DNA from: Rhizobium sp. Q54 | GTDB lineage: Bacteria; Pseudomonadota; Alphaproteobacteria; ATCC43930; CGMCC-115725 | Length of the DNA: 41,076 bases | Assembly (NCBI GenBank): GCA_945861155.1 | Contig: CAMATN010000033.1 | Coordinates: 1-41,076 of the forward strand | Direction of reading: 5' to 3' | Shown here: piece after piece, positions 2,974 to 41,076 of the stretch | Layout of the letters: every line of letters begins with the position of its first letter | How positions within the stretch are numbered: the first letter of the stretch is position 1 | The notes under the pieces: generated by a model | Databases searched by the model: none | What the model saw: only the letters and a program-made list of their open reading frames with translations | Told to the model about the DNA's origin: nothing | Made by a program: the position numbers and the translations under genes

Positions 2974-4239
2974 TTAGGCGACGCGGCCGGTGGTTTCCAC
3001 CCCGGCGTTTTGGACCACGGCGCTTTGGACCATGGGGTTGTGCGCCCGTTCCCAATCGACGATGTAGTCGCGAGTCAGCGGCACCGTGTCGCCGCTCTTC
3101 GCGAGCTGCATCTGAAAGACGAAATGGCCGTCGCGGCGAAAAGCCAATTCGGCGCCGACCAGGTACATTTCCCACATCCGGCAAAACCGCTCGTCGTAGA
3201 GCCCACGAATGCGATCACGGTTCTGCTCGAAGCGATGGCGCCAGGCGCGCAGCGTCTCGGCGTAGTGGCGGCGGAGGATCTCGACATCGGTGATCCACAG
3301 CTGTGCCCGCTCGGCCTCGGGAACGACCTCGGACAGCGCCGGCGAATAGCCGCCGGGAAAGATGTACTTGCGCAGCCACGGATTGGTCGTGCCCGGCCCG
3401 CTCATGCGGCCGATCGAGTGCAAGAGGGCCACGCCCTCGGGGGCGAGCAGCTCGCTCAGCTTGCGGAAGAAGGCGGGGTACTGGTTGATGCCGACATGCT
3501 CGAACATGCCGACCGAGACGACGCGGTCGTAACGGCCGGTTTCCTCGCGATAATCGCGCAGGTGAAAGCGCACCCGGTCGGCCAGACCAGCTTCCGCCGC
3601 TCGCCGGTTGGCCACCTTGTGCTGCTCTTGCGACAGGGTGAGCCCGGTGACGTCGGCGCCGGATTGGGCTGCGATATAGAGCGCCAGACCGCCCCACCCC
3701 GAGCCGATGTCGAGCACCTTCTGGCCCGGGCCGAGCAAGAGCTTTGATGCGATGTGCCGCTTCTTGTTCTGCTGCGCGGTGTCGAGGTCGTCCTCCGGCA
3801 AGCGGAAATAGGCGCAGGAATATTGCCGGTCGCGGTCGAGAAACAGCTCGTAAAGCTGGTCGGACAGATCGTAGTGATGGGCGACGTTGCGCCGGGCGCG
3901 CGGCGCGCGATTGTATTGGTGCAGACGGCGGACGAGACGGCCGGCGGCCTGGCCCAGCCACAGCAGCAGCGCATTGGGCTGGGACGCGTCGTTCGCCACC
4001 AGGATGTCGATGAAATCGTAGAGACTGCCGTCCTCGATGGTTAGCGTTCCGTCCATGTAGGCCTCCGGCACGAACAGCCGCGGCTTCAGCAACAGCTTCC
4101 AGTGGAGCGCCCGGTCGTGCAGGCGCACGGTCGCGGCCGAGCCGGGCGAGCCCTCGAACACATGAACCTTGCCGGCGGCGTCGATGACGCTGAGGCGGCC
4201 AATTCGGATGAACCGGGAAAGCAACGACGCGAACAGCAT
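2974..4239 (-). CDS. cfa: cyclopropane-fatty-acyl-phospholipid synthase
   Basis: The enzyme transfers a methylene group from S-adenosylmethionine to the cis double bond of membrane phospholipid acyl chains, a common stationary-phase or acid-stress modification. The 421-residue product has the family layout: an N-terminal lipid-binding region (SVIDAAGKVHVFEGSPG, LFVPEAYMDGTLTIEDGSLYDFI), the NVAHHYDLSDQLYELFLD segment, the SAM-binding motif VLDIGSGWGGLALYIA near residue 170, LTLSQEQ, MFEHVG, and FPGGYSPALSEV toward the end. The ATG at 4237-4239 (MLFASLLSRF) was chosen because upstream sequence on this strand is antisense to the next genes and shows no homology. It is transcribed divergently from the gene starting at 4459. 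The neighbouring Ldh and MFS genes do not suggest a shared pathway. Confidence 0.95.
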   Translation of the reverse strand: MLFASLLSRFIRIGRLSVIDAAGKVHVFEGSPGSAATVRLHDRALHWKLLLKPRLFVPEAYMDGTLTIEDGSLYDFIDILVANDASQPNALLLWLGQAAGRLVRRLHQYNRAPRARRNVAHHYDLSDQLYELFLDRDRQYSCAYFRLPEDDLDTAQQNKKRHIASKLLLGPGQKVLDIGSGWGGLALYIAAQSGADVTGLTLSQEQHKVANRRAAEAGLADRVRFHLRDYREETGRYDRVVSVGMFEHVGINQYPAFFRKLSELLAPEGVALLHSIGRMSGPGTTNPWLRKYIFPGGYSPALSEVVPEAERAQLWITDVEILRRHYAETLRAWRHRFEQNRDRIRGLYDERFCRMWEMYLVGAELAFRRDGHFVFQMQLAKSGDTVPLTRDYIVDWERAHNPMVQSAVVQNAGVETTGRVA

Positions 4240-4458
4240 GGCGTCAGAATATCGGGCAACTGAGCAGGATAGTAACCCCCAAAGCCGCTTGCCGGTCGCG
4301 GCATGGCGGCCAACCCGCGCTCCACCCTGGTTGCCTCGCTCCCCGCCTTGACAGAGCCGTGCGAGGGCTCGCGTAATCATTGGGCGAAAGCAAGGCGGGC
4401 GAGGAGGGGCGGCCGATTGCGGGCGCCGCTGGCGTCGCGCCGAGCTGAAAGGAAGCCG

Positions 4459-4803
4459 ATGCCGGACGATAATTTTGCCGACGATACCGAAATCATTCGC
4501 GCCGCCTACGCCGAAAAGGTCAAGGAAGCCTTCAAGGTCTTCGCCGAGAACCTTGGCATGGGCCAGAACGAAAAGAGCTCCAAGGACCGCTTTTCGCGTT
4601 CGCTGGAACTGGTGCGCAAGGCTCGGGACATGGCGCTGGAGGTGAGTTCCGGGGTGGTTGTCGTGGAGCCGACGGCGGCCGCCGCCAAAATCTTGGCCGA
4701 CAGCGAGCCGAATGCTGCCGACAGCCTTTCGCTGGAAGACCAGGCGATGATCCAGCAGGCGCTGGCCGGAACGACCGGGCTGAAGCCGGTCACCCGCAGA
4801 TAG
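4459..4803 (+). CDS. conserved small hypothetical protein
   Basis: A 114-residue soluble protein with no signal peptide or membrane segment. The N-terminal half is helical and charged (EIIRAAYAEKVKEAFKVFAENL), followed by SRSLELVRKARDMAL; the C-terminal half has VVVVEPTAAAAKILAD. I do not recognise the family. The ATG at 4459 has a purine-rich GAAAGGAAG just upstream, whereas an in-frame start near 4303 would add an Arg-rich leader that looks non-coding. It is followed after 12 nt by the Ldh-family dehydrogenase gene on the same strand, so the two are probably co-transcribed. It is divergent from cfa. Confidence 0.8.
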   Translation: MPDDNFADDTEIIRAAYAEKVKEAFKVFAENLGMGQNEKSSKDRFSRSLELVRKARDMALEVSSGVVVVEPTAAAAKILADSEPNAADSLSLEDQAMIQQALAGTTGLKPVTRR

Positions 4804-4815
4804 GGCCGCGAAGAG

Positions 4816-5889
4816 ATGGCCGATAACCCCACCCGCGACACGCCTCGCATCGCCGCGTCCGGCCTGACCCAATGCATCGCCGCCGCCTACCGCGCCGCCG
4901 GCATCGCCGCGGCGGAGGCGCAGCGCGCCGCGGAATTGATGGCCGCCTCCGATCTGTCCGGCGCCGACGGGCACGGCGTCTTCCGCCTGCCGCAATATAT
5001 CCGCCGGATCAAGGCGGGCGGCCTCAATACCGCACCCGACATCCGGGTGATCCGCGGCGCAAAGGCGAGCGCGCTGGTCGATGGCGATAACGGGCTCGGC
5101 AGTCTGGTCGTCTCCCGCGCCGTCGAGGAGGCGATCGTACTGGCCCGCGAATATGGGGTCGGTTGGGTCGGCGTGCGGCGCGGCAATCATGCCGGGGCGG
5201 CCGCGGTCTACGCCGCGATGCCGCTGATGCATGACATGATCGGGCTCTATTTCGCGGTCGGCAACGCCAACCACCTGCCGCCCTGGGGCGGCATCGACAT
5301 GCTGCTGTCGACCAATCCGATCGCGATCGCGGTGCCGGCGCTCGATGAGCCGCCGCTCATTCTCGACATGGCGACGACGGTCGCCGCTTACGGCAAGGTC
5401 AAGGTCGCGGCGCAGCAGGGCAAGGCGATGCCGGAAGGCTGGATGATCGACCGCGAGGGAAGGCCATTGACCGACCCCAACCGCGCCGATGACGGGTTCC
5501 TGTTGCCGATCGGCGGTTACAAGGGCGCGGCACTGGCGCTGATGTTCGGGCTCTTGGCCGGCACGCTGAACGGCGCGGCCAACGGCGCCGACGTCGTCGA
5601 TTTCAACAACGACGACACCACCCCGACCAATACCGGCCAGGCGATCTGCGTCATCGACATCGAGGCGTTCGGCGAACCCGTTGCCTTCAAGCGCCAGGTC
5701 GACGCGGTGATCCGGCAATTGCACGGCTCGGCCCTGCTGCCGGGGTTCGACCAAATCCGCCTCCCCGGAGAGGACCGCCACCGCCGCATCGCCGAGCGCG
5801 AGGCCAACGGCGTCCCGATCCCGCCGGCATTGCTTGCCGCGCTCGACCGGCTCGCCGCCGAGCTGGCGATACCGAAGCTGTTCGGCTGA
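4816..5889 (+). CDS. Ldh-family NAD(P)-dependent oxidoreductase (malate/L-lactate dehydrogenase type)
   Basis: A member of the LDH2/MDH2 family, whose members oxidise 2-hydroxyacids such as malate, L-lactate, ureidoglycolate or 2,3-diketo-gulonate with NAD(P). Visible family features are the catalytic-His region GADGHGVFRLPQYI near residue 55, GDNGLGSLVVSRAV, VRRGNHAGAAAVYA, LSTNPIAIAVP, the metal/cofactor loop LDMATTVAAYGKVKVAA, and the C-terminal LPIGGYKGAALALM. The length of 357 residues is normal for the family. The substrate cannot be read from sequence. It sits 12 nt after the small hypothetical gene and 28 nt before an MFS exporter gene, so a three-gene transcript moving or oxidising a small acid is plausible but inferred. 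Confidence 0.9.
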   Translation: MADNPTRDTPRIAASGLTQCIAAAYRAAGIAAAEAQRAAELMAASDLSGADGHGVFRLPQYIRRIKAGGLNTAPDIRVIRGAKASALVDGDNGLGSLVVSRAVEEAIVLAREYGVGWVGVRRGNHAGAAAVYAAMPLMHDMIGLYFAVGNANHLPPWGGIDMLLSTNPIAIAVPALDEPPLILDMATTVAAYGKVKVAAQQGKAMPEGWMIDREGRPLTDPNRADDGFLLPIGGYKGAALALMFGLLAGTLNGAANGADVVDFNNDDTTPTNTGQAICVIDIEAFGEPVAFKRQVDAVIRQLHGSALLPGFDQIRLPGEDRHRRIAEREANGVPIPPALLAALDRLAAELAIPKLFG

Positions 5890-5917: not shown

Positions 5918-7342
5918 ATGCAAACGCGGATGCAGCCGCGCACGCGGCAGCTGGTCATTTCGCTGATCGTCGCCTGCGCGATGTTCATGCAGAACCTCGA
6001 TTCGACGATCATCGCGACGGCGCTGCCGGCGATCGCGCTGTCGCTTGGCGAGAACCCGCTGCGCCTCAACGTCGCGATCACCTGCTATCTGTTGAGCTTG
6101 GCGGTGTTCATCCCGATCAGCGGCTGGACCGCCGACCGCTTTGGCGCCCGGCGCGTGTTCACCGCCGCGATTATCGTGTTCACGATCGGCTCGATCGGCT
6201 GCGGCCTGTCCCAATCGCTGTGGATGCTGGTCGTCGCCCGCATCGTGCAGGGCATCGGCGGCGCGATGATGGTGCCGGTCGGCCGGCTCGTGCTGCTGAA
6301 GACGGTGCCCAAATCCGAGCTGGTGCGAGCGATGTCGTATGTCAGCGTGCCGGCGCTGATCGGCCCGATAATGGGGCCGCCGCTCGGCGGTCTGATCGTG
6401 ACCTACGGTTCGTGGCCGTGGATTTTTTTCATCAACATCCCGGTCGGCGTGCTGGGGGTGATGCTGGTCAATCTGTTCGTCGACAATTTACGCGAGGAAC
6501 GGGTCCGGCCGTTCGATCTGCGCGGCTTCGTGCTGACCGGCATCGGGCTGGCGAGCCTCGCTCTCGGCTTCGAGACGATCGGCCGCGGCGAATTGCCGAT
6601 GGTCACGGTGGCGGGCCTCCTGGCGGGCGGCGTGCTGTGCCTCGTTCTCTACGGGCGGCATGCAAAGCGGGTCGATCATCCGATCATCGACCTCGCGCTG
6701 ATGCGGATCCCGACCTATGCGATGACAACGATCGGCGGCTTTGTGTTCCGCATGGGGATGGGGGCGCTGCCGTTTCTGATGCCCTTGATGTTGCAGATCG
6801 GGTTCGGCCTCGACGCGCTGTCGTCGGGTCTGCTGACCCTGGCCAGCGCCGCCGGCGCGATGACGATGAAGGTCACCGTGAGCCCGATCATCCGCGTCTT
6901 CGGCTTCCGTCGGGTGCTGCTCGTCAATACGTTGTTGTGCAGCGCCTTTCTGTTCGCCTACTCGTTTTTCGAGCCGGCGACGCCGCATGTCGTGATCTTT
7001 CTGGCGCTGCTCGCGGGCGGGTTTTTCCGCTCCTTGCAGATGACCAGCCTCAACAGTTTGAGCTATGCCGACGTGCCGCCCGGCATGCTGAGCCGCGCCA
7101 CCAGCCTGACCAGCATGACCCAGCAACTGTCGCAAAGCATGGGCGTCGGCACCGGCGCGGTGCTGCTTTACGTGTTGCTGGACTTGCATGGAGGAACGGT
7201 GCCGGGACCCGCCGATTTTTCGTTCGCGCTCGCCGCGGTCGGCTTTATCTCGATGCTGTCGGTCCCGTTTTTCCTCCGGATGTCGCCCGATGCGGGCGCC
7301 GAAGTCAGCGGCCGTGCCGTGGCGAAGCCCACGGTCCCCTGA
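5918..7342 (+). CDS. DHA2-family MFS drug/metabolite exporter
   Basis: A proton-driven major facilitator of the EmrB/QacA type with about 14 predicted hydrophobic segments over 474 residues. The N-terminal LDSTIIATALPAIALSL is the conserved TM1 motif of the DHA2 family. The loop GWTADRFGARRVF is MFS motif A, and GPIMGPPLGGLIVTYGSW followed by PWIFFINIPVGV is antiporter motif C. No EmrA-like adaptor gene is present, so it probably exports into the periplasm on its own. The ATG at 5918 has AGAGG close upstream; a second ATG four codons later (5930) is equally possible. The gene follows the Ldh-family gene by 28 nt. The substrate is unknown. Confidence 0.93.
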   Translation: MQTRMQPRTRQLVISLIVACAMFMQNLDSTIIATALPAIALSLGENPLRLNVAITCYLLSLAVFIPISGWTADRFGARRVFTAAIIVFTIGSIGCGLSQSLWMLVVARIVQGIGGAMMVPVGRLVLLKTVPKSELVRAMSYVSVPALIGPIMGPPLGGLIVTYGSWPWIFFINIPVGVLGVMLVNLFVDNLREERVRPFDLRGFVLTGIGLASLALGFETIGRGELPMVTVAGLLAGGVLCLVLYGRHAKRVDHPIIDLALMRIPTYAMTTIGGFVFRMGMGALPFLMPLMLQIGFGLDALSSGLLTLASAAGAMTMKVTVSPIIRVFGFRRVLLVNTLLCSAFLFAYSFFEPATPHVVIFLALLAGGFFRSLQMTSLNSLSYADVPPGMLSRATSLTSMTQQLSQSMGVGTGAVLLYVLLDLHGGTVPGPADFSFALAAVGFISMLSVPFFLRMSPDAGAEVSGRAVAKPTVP

Positions 7343-24710: not shown

Positions 24711-26480
24711 TCAGTTGCCGCTTGCGGCCAGCTTTGCCGCGGCGCGGCGGTCATCGTCCGGATCGAACGATTCCGGCGACGTGTGGACCAGCCGGGGATT
24801 GGGCCCGTGATTGTACCCCGGACTGAGCCAGGGGCGGTCGAGCGAAGGCCGGCCAAAGTAATAGCCCTGCAGAAACCCGACGCCTTCGCGCTGCAATATC
24901 GCCGCGTCTTCGGCTGTCGCGACGCCCTCGGCGACGGTCATAAAGCCAAACCCCTTGGCCAGACCGAGCAGGTGCCGCAGGAAGACCTGGCTGTCCGGGC
25001 TGCCGGCGAGATTGCGGATGAACGAACCGTCGATCTTGACGGTATCGACCGCGAGGCTCTGCAGGTGACGGAGCGACGTATGCCCGGCGCCGAAATCGTC
25101 GAGCGCGACATGGCAGCCGGCATGGCGCAGCGCGCTGACGAAGCGGGCGGATTCCTCGATGTCGTAGAGCGCCGCGGTCTCGGTAATCTCGACGACCAGC
25201 CGGCCGGCGAGGTCGGGCCGGTTGCGCACCTGCGCGATCAGCGAGCGCAGCCAGGGCCGATCGGCCGCCGTCAGGCCTGAGATGTTGAAGCCAAGCCTGA
25301 CCGTCGGATGCGCCGCCAGCTCGGCCAGCGTCATGTCCAGCACGAAGCGGTCGATCAGCCGGATGAAGCCGAGCTGTTCGACGATCGGGACGAATTCGGC
25401 CGCGGAGACCAAGCGCCCGTCCGGCATGCGCATACGCAGCAGGCACTCGTAATGATCGACTTGTTCGGTTACGGCCGACACCACCGGCTGGAACGCGAAC
25501 AGGATGCGATCTTCCCGCAGCGCCGTTCGGACATCCTCGCTGATCGACAGACTGCGGCGCTGGCGCTCGCGCTGCTCGTCGGTCATGCGGTAATGGGTAT
25601 GGCAGTCGCGCCCGGCGCGCTTGGCGTCGGCCAGTGCGCTCTCCGCCCGGGTGATCACGTCGTAGGAGGTGAGGCCCTGATCGGGGAATGATGCGCTGCC
25701 GATCGACACCGTCGCATAGATCGGCCCGCGGGCGGTGGTCACCGGGGTCGAGTTGACGGCCGCCAGGATCTTCTCGGCGGCGGAACCGATGCTGTCGGCC
25801 GGGCAATGCGACAGGACGATGCCGAACCGATCACCGCCGAGGCGGCCGATCAGATCGCTGACCCGCAGGCAATTGTCGAGGCGGCGGCCGAGCTCGACCA
25901 GCACGGTATCGGCCGCCTCATAGCCGAACACCTCGTTGATCGTCGTCATGTTGTCGATGCCGACCGACAGAAGCGCGGCCGGGCTGTGGCGGCGCTGGTT
26001 CGCGGCGATCAGCTGGTCGACCGCCTCGCGCAGGCGGCTCTTATTGAAGTGGCCGGTCAGCTCATCGTAATTGGCGAGGCGTTCGAGGCGCGTCTGTTGC
26101 GCCCGGCGCTCGCCGATGGCGCGGATTACGCCGAGCACGACCTGCGGCCGACCCGCGCCGTCGCGTTTGGCCCGGCCGCGCTCGTGCACCCAGACAAAGC
26201 CGCCATCGGCGTCGCGCAAGCGGTACTCGCAGTCAAAAGCCGCGTCGGCATCGAAATGGGCGGCGAGGGCGAGCTGGCGATGCACCAGATCGTCCGGATG
26301 GATACGGCCGACAAAGCTGCGCCCGCTGGTCAGCTCGACGGCAAACTCGATCCCGGCCGGGGCGAGCCGGCCGAGCCAATCGAGCCCGTCGCCATCGAGC
26401 TCCCAGGAATAGGCAATATCGCCTGCTGCTTCGAGAGCAGCCGACAACCGGCTTAACAGCGCATCGTCGCTAGCGGCCAT
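24711..26480 (-). CDS. PAS-GGDEF-EAL protein with degenerate GGDEF (c-di-GMP phosphodiesterase likely)
   Basis: A 589-residue cytoplasmic signalling protein without TM segments. An N-terminal PAS-like domain (FVGRIHPDDLVHRQLAL, CEYRLRDADGGFVWV) is followed by a GGDEF domain (LERLANYDELTGHFNKSRL) whose active-site motif is GGDRF near residue 216, so the second acidic residue is lost and cyclase activity is unlikely. The EAL domain reads ECLLRM near residue 344, FNISG, VVEITETA, DDFGAGHTSLRHL, VKIDGSFI, VAEGV and QGYYFGRP, so most catalytic acids of a c-di-GMP phosphodiesterase are present. The ATG at 26480 has GAGG upstream; a GTG 14 codons earlier is possible. It converges on phaR. Confidence 0.93.
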   Translation of the reverse strand: MAASDDALLSRLSAALEAAGDIAYSWELDGDGLDWLGRLAPAGIEFAVELTSGRSFVGRIHPDDLVHRQLALAAHFDADAAFDCEYRLRDADGGFVWVHERGRAKRDGAGRPQVVLGVIRAIGERRAQQTRLERLANYDELTGHFNKSRLREAVDQLIAANQRRHSPAALLSVGIDNMTTINEVFGYEAADTVLVELGRRLDNCLRVSDLIGRLGGDRFGIVLSHCPADSIGSAAEKILAAVNSTPVTTARGPIYATVSIGSASFPDQGLTSYDVITRAESALADAKRAGRDCHTHYRMTDEQRERQRRSLSISEDVRTALREDRILFAFQPVVSAVTEQVDHYECLLRMRMPDGRLVSAAEFVPIVEQLGFIRLIDRFVLDMTLAELAAHPTVRLGFNISGLTAADRPWLRSLIAQVRNRPDLAGRLVVEITETAALYDIEESARFVSALRHAGCHVALDDFGAGHTSLRHLQSLAVDTVKIDGSFIRNLAGSPDSQVFLRHLLGLAKGFGFMTVAEGVATAEDAAILQREGVGFLQGYYFGRPSLDRPWLSPGYNHGPNPRLVHTSPESFDPDDDRRAAAKLAASGN

Positions 26481-27902: not shown

Positions 27903-27994
27903 CCGCGCGGTCGCCAATACCGGGGCTGCGCAAGACTGGCCCCCGGCCCACGGGCGGGCGCCGCAATCCATGTTGCTCACTGGAGGATATGGTT
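27903..27994 (+). promoter_or_regulatory. ROSE-type RNA thermometer in the hsp20 leader
   Basis: The end of the leader (27968-27992) folds into a hairpin masking the ribosome-binding site. CCAT (27968-27971) pairs with ATGG (27989-27992), and the conserved TTGCT (27973-27977) faces GGAGGA with a single bulged G at 27975. This is the hallmark of ROSE elements: melting at high temperature frees the GGAGG. The upstream GC-rich leader (27905-27967) can form one or two further hairpins. The 5' boundary at 27903 is estimated from the promoter. Confidence 0.75.
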
Positions 27995-28462
27995 ATGGAA
28001 CGCTTTGATTTCGCTCCGCTGTTCCGGTCGACGATCGGCTTCGATCGGCTGGCGCGCATGGTCGACACCGCGACCCGGGTCGACAACTCGGCCCTGTCCT
28101 ACCCGCCCTATAACATCGAGAAGACCGCCGAGGATTCCTATCGCCTGACGATGGCGGTGGCCGGGTTCGCGCGCGACGAACTCGACATCACCGTGCACGA
28201 GAACACGCTGATCGTGACCGGCAAGGCGCAGCAGGAGGATGAGAGCGGCCGCTACCTGCACCGCGGCATTGCCCGGCGCGCGTTCGAGCGGCGCTTCAGC
28301 CTCGCCGATCACCTCAAGGTGACCGGCGCCAGCCTCGATAACGGGCTGCTGCATGTGGACCTGGTGCGCGAGGTGCCCGAGGCGATGAAGCCCCGCACGG
28401 TGGCGATCGCGAGCACCGAGCAGGCCCAGCCGCAGGTCGCCGAGCACCGCCAGGCGGCTTAA
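27995..28462 (+). CDS. small heat-shock protein, Hsp20/IbpA type
   Basis: A 155-residue small heat-shock chaperone that holds unfolding proteins until Hsp70 refolds them. The alpha-crystallin domain begins at YPPYNIEKTAEDSYRLTMAV, with FARDELDITVHENTLIVTGK and GLLHVDLVREVPEAMKPRTV at its end. The N-terminus RFDFAPLFRSTIGFDRL is typical of the rhizobial class A group. The start was set to ATG 27995: the GGAGG at 27982-27986 is 8 nt upstream of it, while the in-frame ATG at 27989 is only 2 nt away. It has an RpoH-type promoter and a ROSE leader, so expression is heat-induced at both the transcript and translation level. A strong terminator follows. Confidence 0.93.
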   Translation: MERFDFAPLFRSTIGFDRLARMVDTATRVDNSALSYPPYNIEKTAEDSYRLTMAVAGFARDELDITVHENTLIVTGKAQQEDESGRYLHRGIARRAFERRFSLADHLKVTGASLDNGLLHVDLVREVPEAMKPRTVAIASTEQAQPQVAEHRQAA

Positions 28463-36231: not shown

Positions 36232-36441
36232 ATGGACGCCGCCGCCTACGCTCTGCAATCCGATCCGATCCGCAATCCACAATTCCGGCGCGGCTGGGAG
36301 CACCCGCCGCCGAAACGAAAACGACCCGCCGGGCAAGGGCGGGCCGCTGACTTCGAAAGCAGGCTGGACGGACCAACATTATCGCAAACTCACCGCACCG
36401 CGCAACGGGCTGCTGAGGCGCTGTTCGAGGTGCGGCCATGA
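36232..36441 (+). CDS. small phage-type protein, unknown
   Basis: A 69-residue basic protein, first of the block. It reads AAYALQSDPIRNPQFRRGWE, then a Pro/Lys/Arg stretch (PPPKRKRPAGQGRAADF). I recognise no family. The ATG has a GGAGG six bases upstream (36221-36225), and the stop overlaps the next start (ATGA at 36438-36441), which supports real translation. An upstream in-frame extension is antisense to the ThDP enzyme gene and is rejected. Basic and short, it could be a nucleic-acid-binding or regulatory protein. Confidence 0.65.
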   Translation: MDAAAYALQSDPIRNPQFRRGWEHPPPKRKRPAGQGRAADFESRLDGPTLSQTHRTAQRAAEALFEVRP

Positions 36442-36794
36442 GCGGCGCCCGAGAGAAGCCCGAGTCGCGCCGGGAGCGCGTGGAGCGGCTTTGCCGCGAG
36501 GTGATCCGCATTGGGTCACCGCGGCAGTGGCGGCAGGCTAACAAGATCCTCGATCAGCTGCAGGATGCCCACCGCGTCACGCCGACGACGGCCGGTCTCG
36601 CCGAAGCACTCTCGGTCGAAGCGCTCAACCACGGCGCCGCGGTGCAGCAGCTTGGCGAGCGCCCGCCGGTTGGCGTCGTGCGCGCCGCATTCTGGAAACA
36701 CGGTTTCCTCTTTATCGACGACTGGCCGGTCCGCGAGCTGCACCCGAAGCACCCGGTCGCGAGGCTGCTCACCGTTGACGGGTGGGAAGCATGA
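36438..36794 (+). CDS. phage-type protein, unknown
   Basis: A 118-residue soluble protein, mostly helical in the first half (ESRRERVERLCREVIRIGSP, then QWRQANKILDQLQDAHRV) and more mixed later (PVGVVRAAFWKHGFLFIDDW). No family recognised, no membrane or Cys motif. Both ends overlap neighbours by ATGA, so it is translated with the Topo VI-A-like gene. Its position directly before that gene makes it a candidate partner or loader, but there is no sequence evidence for this. Confidence 0.75.
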   Translation: MSGAREKPESRRERVERLCREVIRIGSPRQWRQANKILDQLQDAHRVTPTTAGLAEALSVEALNHGAAVQQLGERPPVGVVRAAFWKHGFLFIDDWPVRELHPKHPVARLLTVDGWEA

Positions 36795-37666
36795 CGGCCG
36801 CCGCCGAGGTTTATCCGGCCTGCCACATAAAACGACGCCGGGCCACCAAGTCCGAGGTCGAGCAGCGCCGAGCTCAGCTGATCGAGATCGTCTCGGCGAT
36901 GAAACCGATGACGGTGAGGCAGGCCTTTTACCAGGCGACGGTCCACAACATCGTCGAGAAGTCCGAAGCCGGCTACTCGATGGTGCAGACCGATCTGGTG
37001 CAGATGCGCCGGTCGGGGGCGCTCCCCTATGCCTGGCTCGCCGACAACACCCGGTGGCAGCGCAAGCCGAACACCTTCGGCAGCATCCAGGAAGCCCTCG
37101 ACGAGACGGCGCGCCTCTACCGTAAAGCCCTGTGGACCGACGCCGGCACCTATGTCGAGGTATGGCTCGAAAAGGACGCACTGGCCGGCGTCGTGCTGCC
37201 GGTCACCGCCTTGTACGACGTGCCGTTGATGGTGGCGCGGGGCTACGCCTCCCTGTCCTTCCTGCACGGCGCGGCCGAGTACATCACCGCTCTAGGCCTG
37301 CCCACCTACGTCTATCACCTCGGCGACTTCGACCCGTCCGGGGTGAACGCCGGCGAGAAGATCGAGCAGACGTTGCGGGAGCTGGCGCCCGACGCGGACA
37401 TCATCTTTGAGCGCATCGCGGTAACCCTCGATCAGATCCATGCATGGAGGTTGCCGACCCGGCCGACCAAAACGAGCGACAGCCGGGCCAAGGGGTTCGG
37501 GGACATCTCGGTCGAGCTTGATGCGATCGAGCCAGGTCGGCTCCGGGACTTGGTGCAGCAGGCGATCGAGCAGCATCTCCCACCCGACCAATTCGAGATC
37601 CTGAAGACGGCAGAAGACAGCGAGCGAACGCTGATCCGACATCTCGTCAGCGGGCTCGCGCCATGA
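36791..37666 (+). CDS. Spo11/Topo VI-A-like protein (topo mini-A type)
   Basis: A 291-residue protein with the two core parts of type IIB topoisomerase A subunits. The 5Y-CAP-like helix-turn-helix region holds MTVRQAFYQATVHN, with Arg43 and Tyr47 in the position of the DNA-cleaving Tyr (the family's R-x-x-x-Y pattern). The Toprim part has Glu127 in WLEKDAL and the acidic pair Asp179/Asp181 in YHLGDFDPSGVNAG. The 52-residue Glu-to-Asp spacing fits the family as I recall it. No B-subunit (GHKL ATPase) gene is adjacent, matching the stand-alone mini-A group known from mobile elements. Whether it cuts, nicks or relaxes DNA is unknown. ATG 36791 overlaps the previous stop; a GTG 3 codons upstream is less likely. 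Confidence 0.75.
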   Translation: MTAAAEVYPACHIKRRRATKSEVEQRRAQLIEIVSAMKPMTVRQAFYQATVHNIVEKSEAGYSMVQTDLVQMRRSGALPYAWLADNTRWQRKPNTFGSIQEALDETARLYRKALWTDAGTYVEVWLEKDALAGVVLPVTALYDVPLMVARGYASLSFLHGAAEYITALGLPTYVYHLGDFDPSGVNAGEKIEQTLRELAPDADIIFERIAVTLDQIHAWRLPTRPTKTSDSRAKGFGDISVELDAIEPGRLRDLVQQAIEQHLPPDQFEILKTAEDSERTLIRHLVSGLAP

Positions 37667-38001
37667 GCATCCACGCACTCGTTACCGGCTCGCTGATCGC
37701 CGACCCGACCCGCCGCAGTGGTGCCCAGGGCGACTTCGCCACCGCGACGATCCGCGTCGCGACCGATGACGGGGCGATCCTCGTATCAGTGATCGCGTTC
37801 GGCGATCAGGTAGAACAGATCCTCGCGCACCGCCAGGGCGGCGCCGTCGCCATCGCCGGCCGGGCAACGCTCCGCTCATGGGTTGGCAAGGACGGCGAGA
37901 CGAAGTGTGGGCTGGCGCTGGTCGCCGAGCAGATCGCCAGCGCATCGGCCGCGCGCCGCGCAGATGCCGAGCGCCGGCGCGGCAACAGGGATGCGGCATG
38001 A
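37663..38001 (+). CDS. single-stranded DNA-binding protein
   Basis: A 112-residue OB-fold SSB. The core runs VTGSLIADPTRRSGAQGDFA, then TATIRVATDDGAILVSVIAF, and AVAIAGRATLRSWVGKDG, with the usual strand pattern. It lacks the acidic DDDIPF-type tail; the C-terminus is basic and Arg-rich (ARRADAERRRGNRDAA), which suggests it does not recruit host repair proteins in the standard way. ATGA overlaps link it to the Topo VI-A-like gene and the primase gene, placing it in a replication module. Confidence 0.85.
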   Translation: MSIHALVTGSLIADPTRRSGAQGDFATATIRVATDDGAILVSVIAFGDQVEQILAHRQGGAVAIAGRATLRSWVGKDGETKCGLALVAEQIASASAARRADAERRRGNRDAA

Positions 38002-38837
38002 GCATGATCCCGCCGGGATGGCCGCGCTTCCCTTGCAATCCCGAGCCGGGCCCCGCACACAAGCGACCGCTCACCGAGCACGGTTTTCACGACGCGTCGA
38101 CAGACCCGGCCATTATCGCGGCCTGGCAGAGGCGATGGCCTGGCGCGCTGATTGGCGTGCCGACAGGCGCGGCGATCGGTGCCGTGGTGCTTGACATCGA
38201 CGTGAAGCGACCCGAGGCCAACGGGTACGACACGCTCGACGATCTCGGCTTCGCGATCCTGCCCGATACGCCGATGGTGCACACCGCGAGCGGCGGACTG
38301 CACCTGTATTTCCGGCGCCCCGCGGCCGGTCTGCGCAACACCGGCGGCGCCCGAGGTCGCGGGATCGGGCCCGGGCTCGATTGGCGCGGCGATGGCGGCT
38401 ATGTGATCGTGCCGTCGCCGGGCAGCGGGTATTCCTGGGACCCCCATTGGAATCTTGACACGGTGCCGCTCACCGAGGTCCCGGCGGCGCTGCTGCCGCG
38501 CGAGGTGGAACGGGAAGCGGCCGCGGAACCGGTCAAGCCGGAAACCGGCCTGTCACGCTACGCCGAGGCCGCACTTGACAGCGCATGCCGGAAAATCATC
38601 ACCGCACCGGCCGGCGAGCAAGAGGCGACGATCAACGGCGAGGCCTTCGCGATTGGCACGCTCGCCGGCGCCGACGCTATTCCGGCCAGCTTCGCGCGCC
38701 GCGCGCTCGAATGGGCTGCTCGTCAGATCCCGAACCATGATCCGCGGCGCCCGTGGCTCGGCCGGGAGATCGAGGCAAAAGTCGCGCGCGCTTTCGCCGA
38801 AGGCCAGAGGCAACCGCGCGAGGCGCGCCGTGCCTGA
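37998..38837 (+). CDS. bifunctional DNA primase/polymerase (prim-pol)
   Basis: A 279-residue archaeo-eukaryotic-type primase (prim-pol, as in plasmid ORF904 and many phages). The catalytic acids are Asp66/Asp68 in VVLDIDVKRPEANGYDTLDD, the motif II His102 in HTASGGLHLYFRRP, and Asp128 in GPGLDWRGDGGYVIVPSP. After the catalytic domain a helical C-terminal part follows (AEAALDSACRKIITAPAGEQ). It should make primers and possibly extend them. The helicase gene starts inside its last codons (8-nt overlap), as expected for a primase-helicase pair. The ATG overlaps the SSB stop. Confidence 0.92.
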   Translation: MSMIPPGWPRFPCNPEPGPAHKRPLTEHGFHDASTDPAIIAAWQRRWPGALIGVPTGAAIGAVVLDIDVKRPEANGYDTLDDLGFAILPDTPMVHTASGGLHLYFRRPAAGLRNTGGARGRGIGPGLDWRGDGGYVIVPSPGSGYSWDPHWNLDTVPLTEVPAALLPREVEREAAAEPVKPETGLSRYAEAALDSACRKIITAPAGEQEATINGEAFAIGTLAGADAIPASFARRALEWAARQIPNHDPRRPWLGREIEAKVARAFAEGQRQPREARRA

Positions 38838-40074
38838 CGCGATTTACGAGAGCGACCCTGACCTGCGCGCCGAAGCTGAGGACGAACGGAAACGCCACCG
38901 CGAGGCGAAATCGAACGGGCACGACACGAGCCGACGGGTGATTGCGGCTACCCCGTTCAGGTGGGTTGACCCGCGCACGATACCGCGCCGGCAGTTCCTA
39001 TACGGTCGCCACCTGATCCGGCGCTTCGTGTCGGGGAAGATTGCGCCCGGCGGCTACGGCAAGAGCTCGCTCACGGTCGCTGAGGCGTTGGCCATGGTCA
39101 CCAGCCGCCCGCTGCTCGGGGATGAGCCCGCCGGCAAACTGCGGGTCTGGCAGATCAATCTCGAAGATCCGGAAGACGAGCTGCAACGTCGCTTTGCCGC
39201 TGCCGCCCTGCACTACGGGATAACTGCCGACGACATCGGCGATCGCCTGTTCGTCGACTCGGGTCGCAAGGTCGACATCGTCATTGCAACCGAAAGCCGC
39301 GACGGTATCGAGATCGCGGTGCCGGTGGTCGAAGCTATCAAAGCCGAGATCCTCGCCAAGGCGCTCGACGTGCTGCAAATCGACCCGTTCGTCGCCTGCC
39401 ATGCCGTTGCCGAGAACGACAATACGAAGATCGCCGCAGTGGCGCGGCAGTGGGCAGCGATTGCCGAGACCACCGGCTGCGCCATCGAACTTGTGCACCA
39501 CGCGCGAAAGGCCGCACCGGGGCAAGTCCTGACGGCCGAGGATGCACGCGGCGCCAGCGCATTACTCGCCGCGGTCCGCTCGGCGCAAGTGCTCAACGGC
39601 ATGACCAAAGAGGAGGCCGAGCGCGCCAACATCGAGAACCCGGCGAGCTATTTCAGCATAACCAATGGCAAGTCGAACCTCGCGCCGCGCAGCGACAAGG
39701 TGACGTGGCGACATATCGTCGGGGTGCCGCTCGGCAATGGCGATGCGACGTACGATCCGAAGGGCGACTACGTCGGTGTCGTCGAACCCTGGTCATGGCC
39801 CGATCCGTTCGCCGAGGTCGGCCCCGAGGACGCCAAGGAGGTGCAGCGGCGCATCGGCCATGGCGAGTGGCGGGAGGACCAGCGAAGCACAACGTGGGCG
39901 GGAATAGTTGTCGCCGATGTTCTCGGATTAGATGCATCCGACAAGGCCGCGAAGGCGCAAATCCGTGCCTTAGTCGCTGGCTGGCTTGCGACTGGTGCAC
40001 TTCGGGTCGTCACCCGCAAGGATGACAGGCGCATGAACAAGAAGTTTATCGAGGTAGGACAATGGCTTGTGTAG
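38830..40074 (+). CDS. RepA-like AAA replicative helicase
   Basis: A 414-residue P-loop ATPase of the RepA/DnaB-like phage helicase type. After a charged N-terminus (about 1-55) comes the modified Walker A IAPGGYGKSSLTVAEAL (residues 71-80), then LRVWQINLEDPEDELQRR, Walker B region AKALDVLQIDPFVA, and AIELVHHARKAA. The C-terminal part has a winged-helix-like DNA-binding segment (AKAQIRALVAGWLATGALRV). The start is GTG 38830, overlapping the primase stop by 8 nt; no ATG is closer. It probably acts at the array of decamer repeats that follows its stop by 14 nt. Confidence 0.9.
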   Translation: MPDAIYESDPDLRAEAEDERKRHREAKSNGHDTSRRVIAATPFRWVDPRTIPRRQFLYGRHLIRRFVSGKIAPGGYGKSSLTVAEALAMVTSRPLLGDEPAGKLRVWQINLEDPEDELQRRFAAAALHYGITADDIGDRLFVDSGRKVDIVIATESRDGIEIAVPVVEAIKAEILAKALDVLQIDPFVACHAVAENDNTKIAAVARQWAAIAETTGCAIELVHHARKAAPGQVLTAEDARGASALLAAVRSAQVLNGMTKEEAERANIENPASYFSITNGKSNLAPRSDKVTWRHIVGVPLGNGDATYDPKGDYVGVVEPWSWPDPFAEVGPEDAKEVQRRIGHGEWREDQRSTTWAGIVVADVLGLDASDKAAKAQIRALVAGWLATGALRVVTRKDDRRMNKKFIEVGQWLV

Positions 40075-40087
40075 CGGCGAGTAGGCT

Positions 40088-40207
40088 TGCCGCAGTCAGA
40101 AAATCACGACTGCGGCAGACTGCGGCAAACCGAGGCACCTGCCGCAGTCTGCCGCAGTCTGCCGCAGTCCCCCCCTTTAGGGGGGCTGCTGCTACATGAC
40201 TGCGGCA
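40088..40207. repeat. seven-copy decamer array (candidate iterons/origin)
   Basis: Seven exact copies of TGCCGCAGTC lie here in two orientations: forward at 40088; reverse at 40108 and 40118; forward at 40140, 40150 and 40160; reverse at 40198. Neighbouring copies are spaced exactly 10 bp, one helical turn. Copies 2-3 and 4-5 form a perfect 20-bp inverted repeat with a 12-bp loop. A further hairpin of six C and six G (40170-40185, TTTA loop) follows. The array sits between helicase and HNH genes. Candidate replication origin or operator. Confidence 0.85.
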
Positions 40208-40225
40208 ACGGGGATGGGTGGGCGA

Positions 40226-40675
40226 ATGAAACCCCGACGCCTCGCCGCCGGCACCGGTCTGCGCCGTGTCGACCTGTCCGCCCGCGTGGCGCCGTTGCCC
40301 TCCCCCATGGAGCGCGGCAACCAGCAGCGGGCGGTGCTGTACGCGGCGCCGCGGTGGCGAGCATCGCGACGTCGGTTCCTGACGCTGCACCCCGTCTGCA
40401 TCACACCCGGCTGCGGCAAGCCGGCAACGGTGGTTGATCACCGCGACGGGCACCAGACCGAGGGGTGGCTCGCCCGGTTCTGGGACGAGAGCCGATGGCA
40501 GCCGATGTGCCCGACATGTCACGCCGTCAAGTCGCGGGCCGAGCTTGCCTCGTGGCGGCAGACCGGCGAGGGGGGACCGGGGGGGCAAATGTTTGGGGGA
40601 TCTGGGGCCAATAACCGCCGGGGGCCTTCGCGTGAGAGCGGCCCGACACCCCGACCTTTTTGGGGCCGAGAATGA
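40226..40675 (+). CDS. HNH endonuclease
   Basis: A 149-residue phage HNH nuclease. The metal-binding knuckle has Cys58 and Cys63 (CITPGCGKPATVVDHRDGHQ with the catalytic Asp71-His72) and Cys95/Cys98-His99 (RWQPMCPTCHAVKSRAEL). Proteins of this kind are typically encoded next to terminase genes and assist DNA packaging. The C-terminal 40 residues are Gly/Arg-rich and disordered. The start is uncertain: ATG 40226 (MKPRRL) is favoured; ATGs at 40214 and 40196 are in frame, the latter inside a decamer. The stop overlaps the terminase start (ATGA). Confidence 0.88.
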   Translation: MKPRRLAAGTGLRRVDLSARVAPLPSPMERGNQQRAVLYAAPRWRASRRRFLTLHPVCITPGCGKPATVVDHRDGHQTEGWLARFWDESRWQPMCPTCHAVKSRAELASWRQTGEGGPGGQMFGGSGANNRRGPSRESGPTPRPFWGRE

Positions 40676-41043
40676 AGTCCCGCCGACCCGTCGCGCCGGC
40701 TCATTTGTCGCCTGTTGCGCGCGATGAATGGGCTCGATTGGCACCCGAGGCGGCCGGTTTGACGCCAGCGACGGCGCGCGGTTTCGCTTTGCTGGTCGAG
40801 TTGCTCGCAAACGAGCGGGCGGCCGCAGAGATCGTCGCGAAAGAGGGCGTGACGGTGCGCTCGGCCGCCGGAACGTCGAAACCGAACCCGGCGATGCGCT
40901 CGCTCGAAATCGCGCGCGCCCAGGCGACGCCGCTTCTGCGGCTATTCGGGCTGCTGCCGGCCGGGCCGCCGCGACGGGCCGACAAAGACGCTGCGAAGCA
41001 ACCAGTGAACGGGAAATCAACATGGCACGGCGTGCTGAAGTGA
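40672..41043 (+). CDS. phage terminase small subunit, P27 family
   Basis: A 123-residue protein of the P27-type terminase small subunit family, which recognises the phage DNA for packaging. The pattern LSPVARDEWARLAPEAAGL, then FALLVELLANERAAAEIVAK, TSKPNPAMRSLEIARAQATP and LLRLFGLLP is characteristic. The ATG at 40672 overlaps the HNH stop, and a GAG is just upstream. Its 3' end overlaps the start of another gene (41022). Confidence 0.88.
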   Translation: MKSRRPVAPAHLSPVARDEWARLAPEAAGLTPATARGFALLVELLANERAAAEIVAKEGVTVRSAAGTSKPNPAMRSLEIARAQATPLLRLFGLLPAGPPRRADKDAAKQPVNGKSTWHGVLK

Positions 41044-41076
41044 AACCGAATTATCCGGCGCCGAGGCCGCTGTTTC
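41022..41076 (+). CDS. start of next phage gene (partial)
   Basis: An ATG at 41022 opens a frame reading MARRAEVKPNYPAPRPLF that runs off the window. It overlaps the end of the small terminase gene by 22 nt in another frame. Position after a P27 small terminase suggests the large terminase or a portal-associated gene, but nothing diagnostic is visible yet. Confidence 0.45.
   Translation, partial: MARRAEVKPNYPAPRPLF

Follow-up and report, generated by a model that had tools for sequence, protein, structure and literature searches.

A decamer array behind a RepA-type helicase gene of a Rhizobium prophage: candidate origin iterons whose word covaries with three residues of the helicase

Work on the Rep protein of SaPI elements and its iterons reportedly goes back to Ubeda in 2007, as relayed by a citing paper. 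SaPI Rep and Cch2 of SCCmec are described as helicases that use their C-terminal domains to bind iterons located just downstream of their own genes (PMC7581432, cited here, like PMC4234260 and PMC4488673, for the part of its text available). The IncQ plasmid RSF1010 uses a RepA helicase, a RepB' primase and a separate iteron binder, RepC, with priming at ssi hairpins, and for pRN1 ORF904 and phage BIP-1 a stem-loop is placed 3' of the gene for the Prim-Pol/SF3/winged-helix protein (PMC4234260, available part). How an initiator and all of its iterons shift their specificity together is a long-standing puzzle, for which close relatives with the same layout and different words are now available, including one with a mixed array (L136, see below). 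Here we describe a candidate for such a system, starting from one contig (C33) of Rhizobium sp. Q54, referred to as the window, i.e., the whole stretch of 41,076 bp that was analysed.

From 36.4 kb onwards the window carries a phage replication module. It comprises an ORF at 36438, a DNA topoisomerase-like protein (36782-37666, + strand; phrog_6247 “DNA topoisomerase,” E 1.9e-53), a single-strand DNA-binding protein (SSB; 37663-38001, +; Pfam SSB, E 4e-6), a protein with a Prim-Pol primase/polymerase domain (37998-38837, +; Pfam PF09250, E 4.4e-29), an RSF1010-RepA-like hexameric helicase of 414 aa, our proposed initiator (38830-40074, +; Pfam AAA_25, E 2.4e-32), an HNH endonuclease (40226-40675, +; phrog_2323, E 4.4e-17 for the frame from 40196) and a terminase small subunit (Terminase_4; 40660-41043, +; Pfam E 2e-10), after which the contig ends. 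The helicase likely starts with a GTG that overlaps the Prim-Pol stop, and the HNH start at 40226 was taken from the homologue on a second contig (C146, see below), an in-frame ATG being present also at 40196. The profile of the helicase family matches RepA of RSF1010 (1g8y, E 1.1e-21), the AlphaFold model (mean pLDDT 92.4) has its best Foldseek matches in 1nlf, 1olo and 1g8y, and the Pfam result for the window helicase was AAA_25 alone, not DUF927 or D5/Primase_Cterm. About 95 C-terminal residues extend beyond the RepA-family core, and here the AlphaFold model shows a domain (39823-40056, +) with the order a1-b1-a2-a3-b2-wing-b3, a predicted winged helix (pLDDT 82.6 when modelled alone). No Pfam family reaches the cut-off over this domain and Foldseek gave no match for it below E 0.001; its best structural match was the RQC region of BLM (Z 7.5), with FtsK gamma at Z 5.9 to 6.2, middling values that support the fold class and nothing finer. 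Among the families matched by the module genes on the contig there was no RepC-type initiator, the 36438 protein being without a match and the remainder of the prophage lying off the contig. Elsewhere in the window, at 27907-28000, Rfam places a ROSE RNA thermometer (RF00435, 45.4 bits at a gathering score of 45) which continues into the beginning of a 157-aa ORF (27989) that by eye resembles a small heat-shock protein.

The helicase stop (40074) and the likely HNH start (40226) are separated by 151 bp, which contain the array. All seven exact copies of the decamer TGCCGCAGTC reported by the first-pass annotation were relocated in the order and orientation given there, namely on the + strand at 40088-40097 (iteron 1), on the - strand at 40108-40117 and 40118-40127 (iterons 2 and 3), on the + strand at 40140-40149, 40150-40159 and 40160-40169 (iterons 4 to 6) and on the - strand at 40198-40207 (iteron 7). 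The coordinates bear out that tandem copies are exactly 10 bp apart, and copies 2-3 pair with copies 4-5 in a perfect 20-bp stem with a 12-bp loop, as had been claimed; the deduction that all sites face one side of the helix holds for the tandem copies with their 10-bp spacing but does not follow for the others. The array does lie beside replication genes, directly after the helicase gene, with the Prim-Pol gene upstream of the latter. An element absent from the earlier description is the palindrome CCCCCCTTTAGGGGGG (C6-TTTA-G6; 40170-40185, without strand), recognised from sequence and fold within the array. By eye, 40075-40225 contains no exact IHF site and no long AT-rich stretch; blastn of 40040-40260 against phages gave no match, and Rfam no family at the array at its gathering threshold. 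Equal density of the decamer along the chromosome had been named as an observation that would count against a special role; instead, 7 of its 15 occurrences in the 4.88-Mb genome are in the array and the other 8 are singles on eight other contigs, while the pattern read backwards occurs 20 times in the same genome. Throughout the genome the tandem 20-mer (at most 2 mismatches) is confined to the array. Two further copies with one mismatch are found in the window, at 25550 and 40409, and in 700-bp stretches the array reaches a cluster score of 8, the best value elsewhere in the window being 5.4, at 25551.

Relatives of the helicase were drawn from IMG/VR (among the matches listed), GTDB genomes, phages and plasmids. 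The first set consisted of 133 loci after five duplicate contigs (L006-L010) had been dropped; for 86 of these a unit was assigned manually, starting from the automatic call and ahead of any sorting of the proteins by unit, and it agreed with the automatic consensus in 83 cases. The remaining 47 received none, being truncated, without a clear array or ambiguous. Downstream of the same RSF1010-RepA-like helicase gene, many relatives have an array of mixed orientation and of the format T(G/T)C-NN-CA(GT/CC). An array is common at this position, but TGCCGCAGTC itself was found in 2 of 98 loci, the window included, so that the lack of the decamer, which the first-pass annotation had listed as counter-evidence, is literally what most relatives present, because their unit differs. 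In a location test on the 94 loci with 700 bp on both sides (the divergent and phage loci L015-L020 left out), a unit-cluster score of at least 5 was reached within the first 700 bp after the helicase stop in 49 loci, as compared to none before the gene, 3 in the 3' end of the gene and none in dinucleotide shuffles; many of the loci below this threshold have, by eye, weaker arrays, in which a CCC(TATA/TTTA)GGG-like palindrome is often present. Over 98 independent loci the array starts less than 200 bp from the helicase stop in 84, at 200-700 bp in 9 and further away (up to 1.4 kb) in 5. These loci contain 37 distinct 9-mers with T1 in 98/98, C3 in 98/98 and A7 in 96/98, bases 2, 4, 5, 8 and 9 being variable, a count that is partly conditioned on the format, to which units were aligned and which the score used as held-out filter favours. 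Exact 10-bp phasing is no fixed rule, the most common same-strand spacings among relatives being 8 to 11 bp, and an IHF consensus is present in 10/92 arrays vs. 1/92 neighbouring stretches.

When the C-terminal sequences of the helicases were sorted by unit, a pattern was visible by eye, before any mutual information (MI) scan. The scan covered 373 helicase alignment columns in 60 representatives, obtained by clustering at 80% identity with the same unit from 82 aligned loci (L015, L017, L019 and L020 were left out as too divergent). Residue 399 came out on top for base 2 (MI z 15.2, next column 5.0), residue 400 for bases 4-5 (z 10.6, next 5.2) and residue 350 for both base 8 (z 17.3, next 7.5) and base 9 (z 20.0, next 7.2). 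In the window, with numbering from 38836, these are an arginine at 350 (codon 39883-39885, +), an arginine at 399 in the wing (40030-40032, +) and a methionine at 400, also in the wing (40033-40035, +); in the model, 399 and 400 are found at the tip of the wing, and 350 immediately precedes helix 2. The scan itself ignores phylogeny, kinship being handled by the clustering and in part by sister pairs: among 44 nearest-neighbour pairs (core identity of at least 50%) columns 399, 400 and 350 were again first, with phi values of 0.84, 0.71 and 0.81 (runners-up 0.49, 0.49 and 0.59). Taking training and held-out loci together, Q350 is found with CC (52/54) and R350 with GT (33/35), while R399 goes with G2 in all 76 cases and S, G or A at this position with T2 (12/13), T (T2 in only 1/4) and N (0/1) being the exceptions. 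At position 400, H pairs with GA or GT (9/9), E or D with CG (6/7), Q with AC (4/5), N with CC (4/6), R with TC (17/24) and K with GC (13/22) or TC (6/22). The word of the array thus covaries with three residues of the C-terminal domain, the predicted winged helix, which strongly supports a determining role of this domain in origin recognition. Columns of Prim-Pol, available for 8 loci only, gave z 6.2 (bases 4-5) and 3.5 (bases 8-9), with helicase columns at 2.7 and 2.7; this control, for which only 8 of the 60 representatives had a recognisable Prim-Pol, did not favour the helicase, and covariation of the word with primases is conceivable as well. The other 370 helicase columns served as the working control for the code. 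Where at least 1.5 kb of upstream sequence was present, Prim-Pol was found in 7, TOPRIM in 8 and neither in 36 of 51 loci, and the strict pairing of residue 350 (Q/CC, R/GT) held in 5 of the 8 TOPRIM loci.

The residue-to-base rules were fixed in writing before new loci were analysed. From 236 held-out loci, 229 were called and 100 passed the array-quality filter, which favours the common unit format; removal of 45 near to training loci, 16 near to each other and one with gaps left 38 that are independent at 90% C-terminal identity. The rule for residue 350 was right in 35/35 (shuffle mean 19.9, maximum 30) and that for residue 399 in 35/36 (shuffle mean 31.4; 20 of 5000 shuffles reach 35), the latter a weak test because few held-out loci have T2. 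For residue 400 it was right in 19/36 (shuffle mean 5.0, maximum 13), and 11 of the 17 failures concern M400: the preset assignment of M400 to AT was wrong, since M goes mostly with C4 (16/19, training and held-out loci together). Units were also predicted from the protein alone in the same new loci, without array-quality filter. Deduplication left 88 of them, of which 63 have residues that the rules cover, a set that overlaps the held-out loci and is no further independent one. At least three copies of the own predicted unit were present in 19/63; units that had been predicted for other loci reached this number in 0.8% of cells. No copy was found in 35/63, 15 of these from the M rule. Much of the unit word can be guessed from three helicase residues.

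Of 14 phage records matched, three were analysed (L016, L017, L018), and no array was detected in Rhizobium phage RHph_X2_26 (L016). Microcystis phage Mae-Yong1326-1 (L017) has an iteron-like array after its helicase and, in addition, 15 copies of GCCCTCGC within 224 bp (6333-6556), all on the same strand, and in Wolbachia phage WO (L018) a GCCATCTT/GCCAACTT-like array at 4169-4376 straddles the end of the RepA-like helicase gene and may represent the phage WO origin. In a distant subfamily of the helicase (many of L146-L225) either no array was detected within 1.9 kb or the repeats misfit the code. TGCACGGTT repeats are seen 0.1 to 1.9 kb downstream in L148, L154, L157, L164, L165, L172, L192 and L195, whose helicases belong to a more distant subfamily with a longer wing and Lys, Arg and Glu at positions 350, 399 and 400, so that the code differs in that subfamily. 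Weak TGCGTAAGT clusters lie 0.5 to 1.8 kb downstream of the helicase in L204, L206, L207, L210, L211, L214, L215, L217-L219, L221 and L223-L225.

Pairs of close relatives provide the strongest evidence for a joint change of helicase and array. The near-identical phages L118 and L120 have ten units in the same places and orientations, and all ten change from TGCTCCAGT to TGCGCCAGT, together with R400K, while the spacers differ in 24 of 172 columns and the helicases at 19 positions, 3 of them in the core. L136 differs from L118 by only ten helicase residues, one in the core, among them R400H, and TC has become GT in most of its units; its ten aligned units are TGCGTCAGT (7, new), TGCGTAAGT (2, a variant) and TGCGCCAGT (1, as in L120). 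Between L117 and L368, TGC is replaced by TTC along with R399S in 8 of 10 units exactly, the other 2 being disturbed in the alignment, and L093 and L076, with 99% identical helicase cores, have K400 and GC vs. M400 and AT, respectively.

We consider it highly probable that the array represents the iterons of a prophage replication origin that are bound by the helicase encoded just upstream, inferring both helicase binding and origin activity from sequence comparison. Of the three readings left side by side by the first-pass annotation (iterons of an origin, bound by an initiator that the element encodes; an operator; a strong hairpin), the first is well supported by the covariation and by the module swap described below, and the binder is likely to be the helicase rather than the 36232 or 36438 proteins also put forward there. 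It is known that crr of phage P4 and handcuffing iterons are control or incompatibility loci, and the array could likewise be bound by the helicase for such a purpose with replication starting elsewhere, which we regard as improbable. Covariation by itself proves neither initiation nor its position. The pair of helicase and array is also present on four circular plasmid records (L382, L383, L384, L385; a fifth match, from Azospirillum, was 62% covered and left out), from Methylobacterium (L382), Microvirga (L383) and, in the case of L385, Rhodoplanes, the last being a phage-plasmid as judged from its capsid, portal and tail genes. Q350 is accompanied by CACC in all four, and residues 399 and 400 fit in L383, L384 and L385, while the mixed array of L382 misfits its E400. 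No minimum of the detrended cumulative GC skew coincides with the array in the four circular records (one of them covered for 50.0/53.8 kb), a point against an origin at the array and for a control locus, but the skew is on the whole uninformative. On the other hand, no second equally strong array was seen within the examined flanks except in L017 (the detector reports one cluster or none per locus, and two in this case), and the arrays at the same place in SaPI and Cch2 elements are described as (putative) origins (PMC7581432, available part). For L382 and L383, the incomplete gene tables of PLSDB name no other replication initiator.

Less probable still is that a folded structure, be it single-stranded DNA, a cruciform or an RNA hairpin, is what is recognised and that the repeats merely build its stem. 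As single-stranded DNA, 40085-40210 folds into a three-way junction of -53.5 kcal/mol, as compared to -23.8 kcal/mol (sd 2.8) for shuffles (z -10.65), in which copy 1 pairs with copy 7, copies 2-3 pair with 4-5 and the C6-TTTA-G6 palindrome forms the third arm. A palindrome of the type C3+ A/T3-5 G3+ is found inside 36/92 arrays vs. 1/92 neighbouring stretches, and a stem-loop at the same place was proposed for pRN1 and phage BIP-1 (PMC4234260, available part). However, all or nearly all units of L015, L019, L020 and L058 have the same orientation, so that stems between units can hardly form there, and single bases of the unit track single residues of the helicase. Because of such arrays we rank the stem-loop model of 2014 (PMC4234260, available part) below that of helicase-bound iterons.

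A second prophage in the same genome, on contig C146 (L015), bears on the remaining explanations. Its HNH and small-terminase DNA is 95% identical to 40248-41076 of the window, up to the shared contig end, whereas its helicase is only 24% identical and is followed by a different array with the unit TGCGGCGGTT. With nearly the same late genes next to another helicase and another array, the array has travelled with the helicase and not with the terminase. This evidence comes from one case, and a scan for further helicase relatives of the L015 type returned only two loci, both already in the set. That the decamers, which are short and abutting and are located between replication and packaging genes, serve as operators at which a separate regulator acts between early and late genes is rendered very unlikely by this swap, in which the array stays with the helicase next to 95% identical downstream genes, and by the unit sequence tracking helicase residues. 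A pac or cos site for the adjoining terminase small subunit, whose gene begins 452 bp past the last decamer, is largely refuted by the same swap, the two small terminases being 98% identical and the arrays different. On C146 an integrase-like ORF (by eye; 4443-5615) adjoins a tRNA (4283-4369), possibly an attachment site, and both contigs stop at matching positions within late genes that are almost identical, which probably reflects an assembly break at a repeat.

If the array is indeed a set of origin iterons, helicase monomers would bind them through the C-terminal winged-helix domain, and binding would assemble one or two helicase hexamers on the DNA, the helicase thus acting as a self-loading initiator. 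The ring might then open the duplex, in some relatives possibly aided by IHF or AT-rich DNA. Priming on the exposed strand could fall to the companion primase (Prim-Pol here, TOPRIM in some others), perhaps at the C6-TTTA-G6 hairpin. Such a helicase family would merge the known plans by giving a RepA-type motor an iteron reader of its own. Extra copies of the lambda origin arrest the proliferation of lambda (PMC4488673, available part), from which one may suppose that different words would be of advantage to elements in the same cell; diverged words might keep co-resident related elements off each other's origins. We lean towards the broader view that RepA-type phage helicases possess an evolvable origin-recognition module with a readable code, in which whole arrays are re-coded with the layout kept and the origins of related prophages become mutually blind in one cell. 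Two wing residues and one before helix 2 would then set the 9-bp word T(G/T)C-NN-CA(GT/CC), and mutually blind origins of this kind would be the phage counterpart of plasmid incompatibility groups. Should binding confirm the code, it would become possible to find and type origins of phages and phage-plasmids by their sequence and to predict replication compatibility groups, and naturally orthogonal pairs of origin and helicase would become available for laboratory use.

Several known systems share parts of this plan. FtsK gamma is a winged helix at the C terminus of a hexameric RecA-fold motor and reads a short word, KOPS, to load it, and the resemblance of the helicase domain to it (2ve9, Z 5.9, among tied winged-helix rows) is at the level of the fold only. 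For the iteron-related domain of begomovirus Rep, residues of the initiator have been matched to iteron bases by comparison, but this is a rolling-circle Rep of a plant ssDNA virus. Lambda O is not known to be a helicase. It is a phage initiator acting on iterons, and extra copies of its origin serve as decoys, but its iterons lie inside the O gene (PMC4488673, available part). The alpha protein of phage P4, likened here by description, is a helicase that binds repeats through a winged-helix origin-binding domain, but it carries a TOPRIM primase in one chain; pRN1 ORF904 and Bordetella phage BIP-1 share Prim-Pol, a C-terminal winged helix and an origin element just 3', but have an SF3 helicase and a stem-loop described without iterons (both PMC4234260, available part). 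RSF1010 has the RepA-family hexameric helicase and iterons, and its ssi hairpins may be compared to the short hairpin in our array; its iterons are bound by RepC, whereas here a C-terminal domain beyond the part aligned with RepA (279 aa) covaries with the iterons. Closest are the SaPI and SCCmec Cch2 systems, with a helicase of a mobile element, short iterons directly downstream and a companion primase, but their helicases are of the DUF927 or D5/Primase_Cterm type, as opposed to the RecA-fold motor of RSF1010-RepA type found here, and no residue-to-base code or coordinated switching of arrays is described for them in the available part of PMC7581432. The literature searched, with most subscription journals outside our reach, contained no report of an iteron code for the RepA-type helicase family. 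The overall plan is known from SaPI and SCC elements, and what appears to be new is its realisation with a RepA-type helicase, the apparent recognition code and the coordinated switching of whole arrays.
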